Source: Desulfosporosinus sp. FKB (GTDB lineage Bacteria; Bacillota; Desulfitobacteriia; Desulfitobacteriales; Desulfitobacteriaceae). Taken from it: a stretch of 64,000 nucleotides of DNA. The notes below the pieces were generated by a model. The model was not told the DNA's origin. It did not search any database and saw only the letters and a list, made by a program, of their open reading frames with translations. Position numbers and translations under genes: made by a program. Below, one piece after another: positions 9,172 through 17,068 of this stretch; position 1 is the stretch's first letter, and every line of letters starts with the position of its first letter. The stretch covers positions 1 through 64,000 of the forward strand of contig NZ_NADJ01000016.1 in NCBI RefSeq assembly GCF_002196705.1, read 5' to 3'.

Positions 9172-10011
9172 TTAAAACCCGTCAGTAATGTGTTTCTTTC
9201 TGGTCAAGAATCTTTCCATATAATACGTTAAGATTACGAAGACACTCATTATTCCAGAGTATTCTATAATTATTGTAAGTACATTAAGTGCGTTAGGGCT
9301 TTGGAATTGTCCTTTGGCTTCTCCTGAGAATGAATGATCAGAATCGCCTCGAGAACCTCTTCCTCTAACTCGTTGTTGTTGGGTTTGCTGTTGAAACCCA
9401 TCATGCGTGGTTTGAGAATTAGTCATCGTAAAGACGTCGTTGATATTTGCAATTTGGTCCACAAAATTTGTTGCGGCTAGCTGATAACCACCGAACAGTA
9501 GGAAGATAATCATGAAAACCCTGGCAACAACTTCTGATGTCTTAGTTGATTTAATTTTAAAGGCGTTTTTGAAGAAACCCATAACCCACTTCCAATGTAA
9601 CCCAATATGAATACCAATCAGAACGAGAGTTAAATAAGAGACACTGACGTGTAATGTTCTAAACAATCCTTCATTACCAACGCGAAGATTGGGAAAGAGG
9701 ACTTTAGAAATAAGTATTCCGCTGACAATGATTAAAGCAAAGGCAATTAATAGAAAGAGATTAAGGACATATCCCAAACGAGTTTTAATGGGGAGTTTTG
9801 AATCAAACAGCCTCAAGCTTACCTTCCTTACCCATTGCAAATTTAGCAAGATATGAACTAGAATACCGAACCCGATGCCAATTCCGCATACTTCATGGAA
9901 AGGCAAGGCAATGACATGTGTATTAAAAAGCAATACGAAGATAACCGATAGAAGAGCATCAATTAACAGTTTTACTAAGTTTCTTTTCACAAACCTATCC
10001 TCCAAATCCAA
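9172..10011 (-). CDS. DUF4405 membrane cytochrome b-like protein
   Basis: A 279-residue membrane protein with about five transmembrane helices. Histidines sit inside or at the ends of helices (LPFHEVCGIGIGFGILVHILLN, FRTLHVSVSYLTL, IGIHIGLHWKW), the pattern expected for haem-b ligation in DUF4405/cytochrome b-like proteins. A polar, glutamine/arginine-rich loop around residues 200-230 (QQQTQQQRVRGRGSRGDSD) lies before the last helix. A role in membrane electron transfer is inferred. No redox partner is adjacent. It is monocistronic. Confidence 0.8.
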   Translation of the reverse strand: MDLEDRFVKRNLVKLLIDALLSVIFVLLFNTHVIALPFHEVCGIGIGFGILVHILLNLQWVRKVSLRLFDSKLPIKTRLGYVLNLFLLIAFALIIVSGILISKVLFPNLRVGNEGLFRTLHVSVSYLTLVLIGIHIGLHWKWVMGFFKNAFKIKSTKTSEVVARVFMIIFLLFGGYQLAATNFVDQIANINDVFTMTNSQTTHDGFQQQTQQQRVRGRGSRGDSDHSFSGEAKGQFQSPNALNVLTIIIEYSGIMSVFVILTYYMERFLTRKKHITDGF

Positions 10012-11961: not shown

Positions 11962-12627
11962 CTACTCTGCTAATACAGCTTTTTTAAATTCCTCAATTTC
12001 AATGCGCTGCATAAATCTAGCAGTTCTCTCATTAGGTTTCGCATTTTCCCGATAATATTCCAGGCATTTTTTAGTCAATTCAACCACCTGATCATCGGTT
12101 AAATTCTCAGCTATGACATCACCAATACGTGGATTTCTACCTGAATTTCCTCCAAAAACAAAGGTCCAACCCGTTCGTTTTCCAAAGACGCCAAAATCGC
12201 GCACAAAGCTCTCAGCGCAACATAAGGGGCAACCGGATACACCTATTTTTCCTTTTGCAGGGAGTTCTGCTCCCACTAAAAGTTCCTCCAAGCGCATTCC
12301 CAGACCGAGAGAATCGAGAATTCCAAATTTGCAAACGGTAGTACCTGGGCAGGCCTGAACATAATGAAAACATTTCTCAACTGCAGGTCCAATACCGGTA
12401 CCTAACTCTTCCCACACAGATTCGACAATCTCAGGTTTCATTCCCACTAAAGCAATCCTCTGAGCAGAAGTAATCTTAATGATAGGAATTTCGTATTTTT
12501 TGGCAACACTCGCGATCTTTTCTAATAATTCAGGGGTAACTATCCCGACCGGGGTTCGTGGGACAATGGCATAGGTTTCTTTATCCCTTTGAATAAAAGC
12601 TCCTCTTGGTGCATTCTGCTCTGACAT
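11962..12627 (-). CDS. small siroheme [4Fe-4S] sulfite/nitrite reductase-like protein
   Basis: A 221-residue protein. After an N-terminal ferredoxin-like half-domain it has CPGTTVC (C-x5-C) and GVSGCPLCCAES (C-x3-C counting outer cysteines), the four-cysteine arrangement that binds siroheme coupled to a 4Fe-4S cluster. The size fits the low-molecular-weight (about 25-27 kDa) sulfite reductases of anaerobes rather than the dissimilatory two-subunit enzyme. Likely activity is reduction of sulfite (or nitrite) at siroheme. Physiological role, assimilatory or detoxifying, is uncertain. It is monocistronic, ATG 12627 with GGAGGG upstream, and its neighbour at 12692 is a dead permease. Confidence 0.85.
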   Translation of the reverse strand: MSEQNAPRGAFIQRDKETYAIVPRTPVGIVTPELLEKIASVAKKYEIPIIKITSAQRIALVGMKPEIVESVWEELGTGIGPAVEKCFHYVQACPGTTVCKFGILDSLGLGMRLEELLVGAELPAKGKIGVSGCPLCCAESFVRDFGVFGKRTGWTFVFGGNSGRNPRIGDVIAENLTDDQVVELTKKCLEYYRENAKPNERTARFMQRIEIEEFKKAVLAE

Positions 12628-14202: not shown

Positions 14203-14544
14203 TTACTGGGTAAATACAACAGTCAAGATCATTTTGAATTTTTTAACCGCCAGCAACGCGTGTGGGACACCGGCTGGCATAACTATTGTCTCTCCCTTTT
14301 TTAAAGAGAACTTTTCTTCCCCAATCGTAATTTCCGCTTCTCCGTCTAGAAGATAGACTAACGCGTCACCGCTTGAGGAATGTGCACTAATTTCTTCCCC
14401 CTCAGCAAAAGCAAATAACGTAATACTTAGGGATTTCCCTTGGGTCAGAGTTCTGCTCACGACCTGACCCTCGGTGTACTGAACCAATGTTTCCATTGTC
14501 AAAGCCTTGGAAAAATCAATATTCTTAATAAAATGTTCAGTCAT
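14203..14544 (-). CDS. cupin-domain protein
   Basis: A 113-residue single-domain cupin. Motif 1 appears as EEISAHSSSGDALVYLLDGEAEITIG and motif 2 as GETIVMPAGVPHALLA. The first motif has one His and the second has His in PxGVPHA, giving a reduced metal site as in many small cupins of the 2-domain ReutB-like group. ATG 14544 is nine bases after GGAGGG and is preferred to the upstream TTG at 14553. Function is unknown. It might bind a small metabolite or act as a stress sensor. Confidence 0.88.
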   Translation of the reverse strand: MTEHFIKNIDFSKALTMETLVQYTEGQVVSRTLTQGKSLSITLFAFAEGEEISAHSSSGDALVYLLDGEAEITIGEEKFSLKKGETIVMPAGVPHALLAVKKFKMILTVVFTQ

Positions 14545-14637
14545 CAGCTGCAACCCTCCGCTTAAAATTCTACTTAAGTAGTAGTATGAATCACAACCTA
14601 TATTCTAAACGAAGCAAATAATAGATTAGTAACCAAA

Positions 14638-15459: not shown

Positions 15460-16725
15460 CTAATGCTTCGCTTTCAAAGCATCGGCCTGTGATTGCATGT
15501 CAACTAATGCTTTTTCTTGCTCATAAATTCCATTCCAATTTACATAGTCTGCTCCCCCCATGACGGCTCCAAACCGTGCTCTACGGCCTTCATGATGCCA
15601 TAGTTCGAAATATTCAAAGTCGATCGGAGTGCCAAAGGGCTTGGTGCCTAGCAAACCAGAATTGCGCAGATCTTGGACAATCGATTTACCCTTCTGGACA
15701 TTTTGATTGGAAAGGGCAATGGTTTTGTCTGCTTTGCTCATGACATCATTGATAAACGACTGGACGTGACAATTAAGGCAAATTGAATTCATCGTTTGCT
15801 GGTGAACATCCCCATCCTTACGCAGTGAAGCAATTTCAGGAGTTAGGTTATCTTTCAGACGCTGCCCTACATCGTGAGTCCCTTGAACGCTGCCAAAGGC
15901 CGACATATGACAGGTGGCACAAGTTGGAGCCGGAAAATCATTTACAGTCAATGTTCCAGAAGGCGCGTCCATATTATATTTTGATTGATTTGCTTGATAA
16001 TAAGTTCCGTGAGCCGATTCGTTATATATTTCTGCCTGCGGATGATCGGGACCTAGATGGCATTGGGCACATGTTTCCGGTTTGCGGGCTTGTGCTACAT
16101 CAAAAGTATGCCTTAAATGGCACTTTGTGCAATCCCCAAAACTGCCGTCACTATTCTTTTGACCAACAGCATGGCAAACCTCGCAAGATTGAGCACTAGC
16201 ATCTTTACCGATGAGATTATAAACGGCATTAGCATTGCCCCCATTGAGAGGCTTGCCATTAGCATCGAGTAAATGATATTTAGCCAGTTCTTCCGATGTG
16301 AAATTTTTTGCTCCTTGGACCGCATACCATGATTTTGCAGAATGATTGCTTGCCTCGAACTGTTTGACTTCGGTTGCGTGGCATTGAGCACAATTATTAG
16401 GAGTCGGTTTAGAGATAATTGCAACATTGTAATGCTGTGTCGTTAACGTATCTTGCCCTTTCACTGCTTTGTGGCAATCGAGACATTGAACTCCACGGCT
16501 GGAATGTTCGCTGTCATGATATTGCTGGATAATTCCCGGATTTTCTTTCTGGTGACATTCTACACAAGCCTTATTGTCCCCAGTTGCAACCGCACTCAAA
16601 GACGGCACACTCGTACTTAGTCCTTCTGGGCCAATGATGTAGTGGTAGGTTAAGAATAATAGAGAACATACAAGAACAGTTCCCATTCCTAACAGAATAA
16701 TCATACGTTTTGAAGTCGGCTTCAT
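15460..16725 (-). CDS. octaheme hydroxylamine-oxidoreductase-type c-cytochrome
   Basis: A 421-residue protein with a single N-terminal membrane anchor (about residues 8-30) and exactly eight CxxCH motifs: CVECH, CLDCH, CAQCH, CEVCH, CTKCH, CAQCH, CATCH and CLNCH. The C-terminal segment ELWHHEGRRARFGAVMGGADYVNWNGIYE matches the conserved C-terminus of the HAO family rather than NrfA. It should sit outside the membrane and transform nitrogen oxides, probably reducing nitrite or hydroxylamine to ammonium as proposed for related enzymes in anaerobes. Direction of catalysis depends on the tyrosine cross-link, which I cannot settle. It is first in a two-gene operon, with a CRP/FNR-type palindrome about 330 bases upstream. 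Confidence 0.88.
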   Translation of the reverse strand: MKPTSKRMIILLGMGTVLVCSLLFLTYHYIIGPEGLSTSVPSLSAVATGDNKACVECHQKENPGIIQQYHDSEHSSRGVQCLDCHKAVKGQDTLTTQHYNVAIISKPTPNNCAQCHATEVKQFEASNHSAKSWYAVQGAKNFTSEELAKYHLLDANGKPLNGGNANAVYNLIGKDASAQSCEVCHAVGQKNSDGSFGDCTKCHLRHTFDVAQARKPETCAQCHLGPDHPQAEIYNESAHGTYYQANQSKYNMDAPSGTLTVNDFPAPTCATCHMSAFGSVQGTHDVGQRLKDNLTPEIASLRKDGDVHQQTMNSICLNCHVQSFINDVMSKADKTIALSNQNVQKGKSIVQDLRNSGLLGTKPFGTPIDFEYFELWHHEGRRARFGAVMGGADYVNWNGIYEQEKALVDMQSQADALKAKH

Positions 16726-17052: not shown

Positions 17053-17068
17053 TGTGATTTAGATCACT
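17053..17068. promoter_or_regulatory. candidate CRP/FNR-family binding site
   Basis: TGTGA-N6-TCACT, a near-perfect dyad of the CRP/FNR type, lies in the 475-base gap between the octaheme operon (starts at 16725) and the anion permease (ends at 17202). A second AT-rich dyad (TTAATTAA) is near 17020. FNR/CRP-family regulators commonly control respiratory nitrogen genes, which fits the downstream operon. The distance to the ATG is long, so the promoter would have a leader. Confidence 0.5.

Follow-up and report, generated by a model that had tools for sequence, protein, structure and literature searches.

How might a Gram-positive sulfate reducer deliver electrons to a multihaem cytochrome anchored in its membrane, and which compound would that cytochrome reduce? 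The question arises from a gene pair in Desulfosporosinus sp. FKB, located in a stretch of 64,000 nucleotides that was analysed as a whole and that we call the window (G000:C8:1-64000; genome 5.1 Mb). A first-pass annotation had recognised an octahaem cytochrome of the HAO family with an N-terminal anchor, adjoined by an 8-TM protein lacking haem motifs, and had proposed that the two form a quinol-linked, ammonium-forming module. Our analysis confirms the description of the two proteins and lends indirect support to the quinol link and to a role with nitrogen oxides, which comes from the exchange of the membrane partner in distant relatives and from an operator shared with hcp and asrABC. The features concerned are:

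15460..16725, minus strand: octahaem c-type cytochrome of 421 aa, apparently of the reductive HAO type, with eight CxxCH, a PF13447 match and an N-terminal membrane helix
14638..15444, minus strand: 8-TM membrane partner of 268 aa, built of two 4-TM repeats, with invariant H36, H93, H162 and H220
16057..16071, minus strand: sixth CxxCH motif, directly followed by G-P-D-H with the predicted catalytic Asp227-His228
16171..16185, minus strand: fourth CxxCH motif (Cys181-His185), corresponding by its order in the sequence to haem 4 in the active site of HAO
17053..17068, no strand assigned: Crp/Fnr-type operator AGTGATCTAAATCACA, 327 nt upstream of the cytochrome start

Results

An octahaem cytochrome of the HAO family

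The partner gene starts 15 nt downstream of the cytochrome gene, and each of the two is preceded by its own ribosome-binding site (GGAGG in front of the partner). The pattern TGY-N6-TGYCAY matches eight times inside the cytochrome ORF and 13 times in the whole window, compared to a mean of 3.06 after shuffling, and 13 matches were reached in none of 100 shuffles. A downstream cupin gene (14203-14553) was rejected as a third member, since only the cytochrome and its partner recur in at least three of the 18 neighbourhoods compared. Elsewhere in the window, positions 11962-12627 (minus strand), 3 kb from the pair, encode a 221-aa NIR_SIR protein resembling the C-terminal part of NirB. A DUF4405 membrane protein encoded at 9172-10011 (minus strand) is weakly similar to cytochrome b561 and contains a Gln-rich stretch. 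The NIR_SIR protein has the same two domains as DEACI_1836, a nitrite reductase candidate according to the available part of PMC10949509, but DEACI_1836 is longer (300 aa).

The cytochrome scores 118.3 bits against PF13447 (cut-off 21.9), carries eight CxxCH motifs, as do all 17 relatives in which they were counted, and begins with a predicted helix spanning residues 3-31 of the structure model. Its nearest named relative, from Desulfosporosinus acididurans M1, is 96% identical. Among known structures, the best match over most of the length in both sequence (E 3e-65) and fold (Foldseek E 1.5e-16, with a model pTM of only 0.60) is 4qo5, an octahaem protein of Ignicoccus hospitalis with the PDB title 'Hypothetical multiheme protein', which we take to be IhOCC; in the profile search, and by fold as well, it is followed by HAO, KsHAOr and HDH (hydrazine dehydrogenase) chains. 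We know of no 8-TM partner for 4qo5, which is longer (521 versus 421 aa) and has Val in place of the catalytic His. The two cytochromes have in common a membrane association, named for 4qo5 in the title of its paper.

A catalytic site is indicated by the residues after the sixth haem motif. Asp227-His228 is invariant in 16 of 16 sequences and in all 11 rows of another alignment; in the profile matches it lies opposite GVDH of Nitrosomonas HAO (1fgj/4fas) and GPDH of the Kuenenia enzyme KsHAOr (6h5l). We take this Asp-His pair near haem 4 to be the catalytic residues of HAO. Apart from the CxxCH motifs and His228, the 16 sequences show invariant or nearly invariant His at positions 74, 98, 128, 206, 239, 284, 377 and 378. 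By sequence, their number would allow seven haems to be bis-His ligated and one to stay open, the arrangement found in HAO, with the assignment of each His to its haem being predicted; one haem has no evident distal His.

The first-pass annotation had further claimed an HAO-like C-terminus and had called for an alignment at the catalytic tyrosine. In broad terms the likeness holds, as this end is nearest to 4qo5 (E 2.5e-10), but the tyrosine is absent: the column occupied by tyrosine in Ruegeria HAO (gene beside haoB), presumably the residue cross-linked to the adjacent subunit's haem 4, contains N, Q, H or W in all 10 other rows. The presumed cross-linking tyrosine of oxidative, P460-type HAO was thus found in none of these 10 rows. 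The absence of this residue goes with a reductive role according to the accessible portions of PMC2628731 and PMC12758564. With Asp-His retained and the presumed cross-linking tyrosine missing, the cytochrome looks to be of the reductive type, and it resembles reductive HAO (KsHAOr and epsilonproteobacterial Hao) in its PF13447 domain, its GPDH motif and its C-terminal segment lacking the tyrosine. An assignment to NrfA is not indicated, with 23.5 bits against PF02335 (cut-off 24.1) and no CxxCK in the translation. A search for viral relatives found none.

An internally duplicated membrane partner

Known families did not account for the 8-TM protein. A Pfam search gave no family at E 1, a PDB sequence search no match at E 10, and two weak NCBIfam rows (E 0.6 and 0.85) were taken as chance. 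NapC/NrfH was rejected as its identity because there is neither a PF03264 match nor a CxxCH motif, and NrfD because PF03916 does not match, while the same profile does detect the neighbour of a related cytochrome in a Planctomycetota record. The structure model (pLDDT 84.9, pTM 0.86) consists of eight long helices in two sets of four. Foldseek returned nothing at E <= 0.001 from the PDB or from viral models. The top rows of VIA-align were the soluble four-helix bundles 3dby (Z 14.7, 219 aligned, 4.1 A) and 3d19 (Z 14.0), to which we gave no weight because such Z scores are common among helical bundles; otopetrin, carboxylase and rhodopsin rows ranked lower and were dropped.

The two halves of the partner are homologous to each other (hhalign probability 98.9%; E-values there refer to a single comparison). 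H36, H93, H162 and H220 are conserved in every one of 17 partner proteins; they mark the ends of helices 1, 3, 5 and 7, with H36 aligning to H162 and H93 to H220. If the positively charged N-terminus lies inside, all four His would be at the outer face of the membrane.

Among 398 genomes of the phylum that were searched, 10 had matches. Five of them contain full-length copies, 12 in total, of which nine stand beside an octahaem and three beside a monohaem cytochrome c; the other five contain only a half-size unit of about 130 aa. This unit matches both partner halves (hhalign 98.4% and 97.3%) and retains both His. In four of the five genomes it precedes genes for Gluconate_2-dh3 and a GMC oxidoreductase, as judged from Pfam on one locus (L069), and the fifth match, which is weak (E 8.9e-6), has no such genes behind it. 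Thus, the Bacillota GMC dehydrogenase system and the octahaem pair have homologous membrane proteins, but the catalytic subunits differ and the 4-TM protein of the former is half the size and unduplicated. Judged from its sequence, the partner is an undescribed, internally duplicated family.

The 130-aa 4-TM protein before Gluconate_2-dh3 and GMC genes in Bacillota (L069-L072; genomes G196, G107, G050 and G383), without a Pfam match where the search was run (L069), may take the place that a cytochrome c subunit has in FAD-type dehydrogenases. A third full-length homologue of the partner lies downstream of a monohaem cytochrome c in three of three loci (L027:9108-9986, corresponding to G000:C27:221155-221946, and L041 and L043); it is interrupted by an in-frame TGA in the FKB genome and intact in the two relatives.

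Conservation of the gene pair

Close relatives of the cytochrome were sought at E 1e-40 in 45 genomes of the family, 29 from one genus and 16 from other genera. They were found in 16 genomes, all of the one genus, and at this threshold in none of its 13 remaining genomes and in none of the 16 genomes of other genera. The first-pass annotation had considered that the membrane protein might not be conserved beside the cytochrome. Our comparison revealed the opposite, with the partner directly downstream in 26 of 26 cytochrome stretches (25 loci). One of these loci (L067/L068, on G407:C97) is a type-2 pair with both reading frames broken. Among 20 named loci, mostly from the same genomes so that the two sets overlap, the partner is present in all 12 with at least 40% identity, including a Sumerlaeia record, and absent from the other eight: two records lack the 8-TM protein (L018 and L019), and six (L020-L025) gave matches so weak (E 1e-5 to 5e-4) that they stand outside the linkage counts. 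One named locus, from a record titled Dermatophilaceae MAG (L016), shows a typical type-1 pair at 70% identity, and its contig may be misbinned.

Moreover, the distances of cytochrome and partner agree closely over 17 pairs (Mantel r 0.974; none of 9,999 permutations as high), and they do so within the 13 type-1 pairs as well (r 0.877). Two paralogous pairs, type 1 (that of the window) and type 2, occur in several genomes including that of strain FKB, where the second one (G000:C23; L026:2651-4837) is 43-45% identical to type 1 and may have a different role.

Partner exchange in distant relatives

The membrane protein had also been claimed to differ from the NapC/NrfH partner of known systems. 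This is correct for the subclade of the window, but two Desulfobacterota relatives have NapC/NirT in that place. A plasmid search returned three records; Desulfosarcina ovata and Desulfobaculum bizertense each have a plasmid on which a NapC/NirT gene is followed by the gene of an octahaem cytochrome with 34.5% identity, and in D. ovata the next genes are those for a ferredoxin, norR, nitric-oxide reductase and a hemerythrin. A Planctomycetota record (L018) has NrfD in the partner slot and an Rrf2-type regulator nearby, and in a Fermentibacteria record (L019) CopD and cytochrome b5 domains form one fusion protein with the cytochrome. Cytochrome-like matches were obtained in 16 genomes, five of which have the partner; we examined the surroundings in five of the other 11. 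One Bacillota genome (G111) has an octahaem cytochrome with Rieske and cytochrome b genes, and three others (L161-L163) show no evident membrane partner among ORFs of at least 80 aa. In the former locus (L164:1647-8263), Rieske, cytochrome b and HAO-type octahaem genes stand in a row and by sequence would encode a bc-like complex with an octahaem subunit; the next two genes, identified by eye, are for a molybdopterin-type oxidoreductase and an iron-sulfur protein.

With NapC/NirT, NrfD, CopD/b5 and Rieske/cytochrome b found beside or fused to relatives of the cytochrome, the slot of the 8-TM protein is occupied elsewhere by known quinol-linked proteins, which supports a quinol-oxidising role for the protein itself. 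The most serious alternative is that it serves only as an anchor, an assembly or a haem-handling factor and that the cytochrome obtains its electrons elsewhere, for example from a soluble cytochrome, or relies on its own anchor. The 8-TM protein matches no known redox family and its cofactor is a prediction, and stand-alone octahaem relatives with no evident membrane partner occur in the three Bacillota genomes. However, the same fold unit accompanies three redox partners (octahaem cytochrome, monohaem cytochrome c and GMC dehydrogenase), its His pair is kept in the N-terminal half, the C-terminal half and the half-size units, and the slot is filled by quinol-linked proteins in other lineages. 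Hence, we regard a purely structural or assembly function as unlikely.

A shared operator and the nitrogen physiology of the host

Of 18 type-1 genes, 15 have the sequence GTGA-N6-TCAC in the 500 nt before them, against a background of 0.043 per 500 nt; these are not independent cases because some of the 18 are close relatives. The sequence is missing upstream of the other three type-1 genes and of all eight type-2 genes (one of them with only 162 nt available). The copy in the window has one mismatch to the strict form TGTGA-N6-TCACA. Strict sites number five in the FKB genome, about as many as in the reversed control (4). They lie 108 nt before hcp, 65 nt before asrABC, before a NapH-like gene, between crp and transporter genes, and before a TauE-like gene. 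In six further genomes, strict sites outnumber controls (41 versus 14). A strict site precedes hcp in five of five Desulfosporosinus genomes examined (with two hcp copies in two of them), asrABC in three Desulfosporosinus genomes, and the type-1 octahaem gene in G003, G155 and G087. None of the strict sites examined in G279 and G087 stands beside hcp or asrA. As a separate observation, the gene for a NapH-like iron-sulfur membrane protein with an upstream strict site was seen in four genomes, one of another class (L093:5527-6592, L114, L116 and L131).

The strict sequence is also the consensus bound by Fnr of Bacillus. For HcpR, the consensus site is wTGTGAnnnnnnTCACAw (PMC1274295, in the part available), and an accessible section of PMC5701242 assigns the same operator to CRP-, Fnr- and Rex-type regulators. 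The operator is therefore no proof of nitrosative control, and the site alone cannot separate Rex, CRP or Fnr from HcpR; an HcpR-like regulator is our guess.

The FKB genome contains hcp. It has no match to NrfA (PF02335), for which an E. coli control was positive, and no narG above the cut-off (23 weak matches). Without NarG the cell does not form nitrite by that route, and the substrate of the pair would be external nitrite or NO, in respiration or detoxification. The available part of PMC10949509 describes nitrite reduction by D. acididurans and D. acidiphilus, in which NrfA was not found, and states that on nitrate Acididesulfobacillus raises hcp 30-fold and asrABC 29-fold. These Acididesulfobacillus genes are homologous to those of Desulfosporosinus. 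The pair is also carried by the genome G410 (a single contig of 5,863,081 bp), which we take to be D. orientis. In the same part of PMC10949509, D. orientis is listed as negative for nitrite reduction. This speaks against a simple link between the pair and nitrite reduction, as the pair of G410 probably resides in a non-nitrite-reducer. D. orientis is also described, in the accessible text of PMC7248197, as cytochrome-poor and without multihaem cytochromes. PMC10949509 was the only paper on Hao in Desulfosporosinus that our literature search found; in its available portion Hao is named only in the introduction and the octahaem pair is not discussed.

Since asrABC encodes an anaerobic sulfite reductase system, the operator set could concern sulfur, and the pair might reduce a sulfur oxyanion (sulfite, thiosulfate or tetrathionate) in a respiratory side branch of the sulfate reducer. 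Octahaem cytochromes may have broad specificity, as an accessible passage of PMC5276818 indicates. However, the cytochrome is nearest in sequence and fold to 4qo5 and HAO types rather than to octahaem nitrite or tetrathionate reductases, the operator is common to hcp, and the D. ovata relative adjoins norR and the nitric-oxide reductase gene. A sulfur substrate therefore seems to us quite improbable. Less probable again is a general electron conduit to the cell surface, serving ferric iron or electrodes, in place of a nitrogen enzyme; an outward-facing octahaem protein in a Gram-positive and relatives from acidophilic, iron-rich habitats (to judge by literature titles) would suit it, but a plain wire needs neither a haem without evident distal His nor an invariant Asp-His pair, and the operator common to hcp speaks against it too. 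Finally, the oxidation of hydroxylamine or NO with electrons passing to menaquinone, as in nitrifiers, is hardly credible despite membership in the HAO family, given the lack of the presumed cross-linking tyrosine in 10 of 10 rows, which the available part of PMC12758564 ties to reductive function, and an anaerobic host in which menaquinone is expected.

Discussion

Our favoured reading, which we consider probable, is that the two proteins form a membrane-bound, outward-facing reductase of nitrogen oxides that is fed from menaquinol by the 8-TM protein and represents a Gram-positive "reverse HURM". In this scheme, the 8-TM protein would oxidise menaquinol near the outer membrane face. Every 4-TM bundle would have a site for a cofactor or quinone, framed by the His residues of its helices one and three, and our first guess for the occupant is a bis-His haem b. 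Electrons would then pass to the anchored octahaem cytochrome, where nitrite or NO would be converted in the pocket of haem 4 into hydroxylamine, ammonium or both, and Hcp, preceded by the same type of operator, would deal with hydroxylamine or NO entering the cell. Ammonium as the product and hydroxylamine passed on to Hcp appear equally likely.

A reverse HURM composed of reverse-Hao, a quinol dehydrogenase and Hcp has been proposed for Nautilia, according to the accessible part of PMC2628731. Two of these components, a Hao-type cytochrome and Hcp, are present in strain FKB, and the partner would provide the quinol link. Such schemes involve a tetrahaem quinol dehydrogenase of the NapC/NrfH/cM552 type, which would here be replaced by the unrelated 8-TM protein. 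In Thermosulfurimonas and Dissulfuribacter, a HaoA-like cytochrome occurs with NrfD and without NrfA, and a role in nitrite reduction has been proposed (PMC5276818, in the part available). These bacteria likewise combine an HAO-like cytochrome with a polytopic membrane protein, but theirs is NrfD, whose profile misses the partner described here. NrfHA and NrfABCD reduce nitrite with a periplasmic multihaem enzyme from the quinol pool, and the Desulfosporosinus pair is predicted to work in a similar way; it differs in its cytochrome, which falls below the NrfA cut-off, and in a partner that is neither NrfH nor a recognisable NrfD.

A broader proposal, which we put forward tentatively and rate at somewhat under an even chance, is that the partner founds an undescribed class of membrane quinol oxidoreductases. 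Its four-helix unit, with one P-side His pair and probably one haem b, would be used singly with GMC dehydrogenases and in duplicate with monohaem and octahaem cytochromes c, and in Desulfosporosinus it would complete a reverse-HURM for nitrite or NO that dispenses with NrfA, NapC and NrfD.

Overall, the octahaem pair is a candidate for the nitrite reduction of acidophilic Desulfosporosinus without NrfA. If the partner is a quinol oxidoreductase, it would provide annotators with a new family by which Bacillota connect redox enzymes facing outward with the membrane, and partner exchange around a single octahaem enzyme would become testable.
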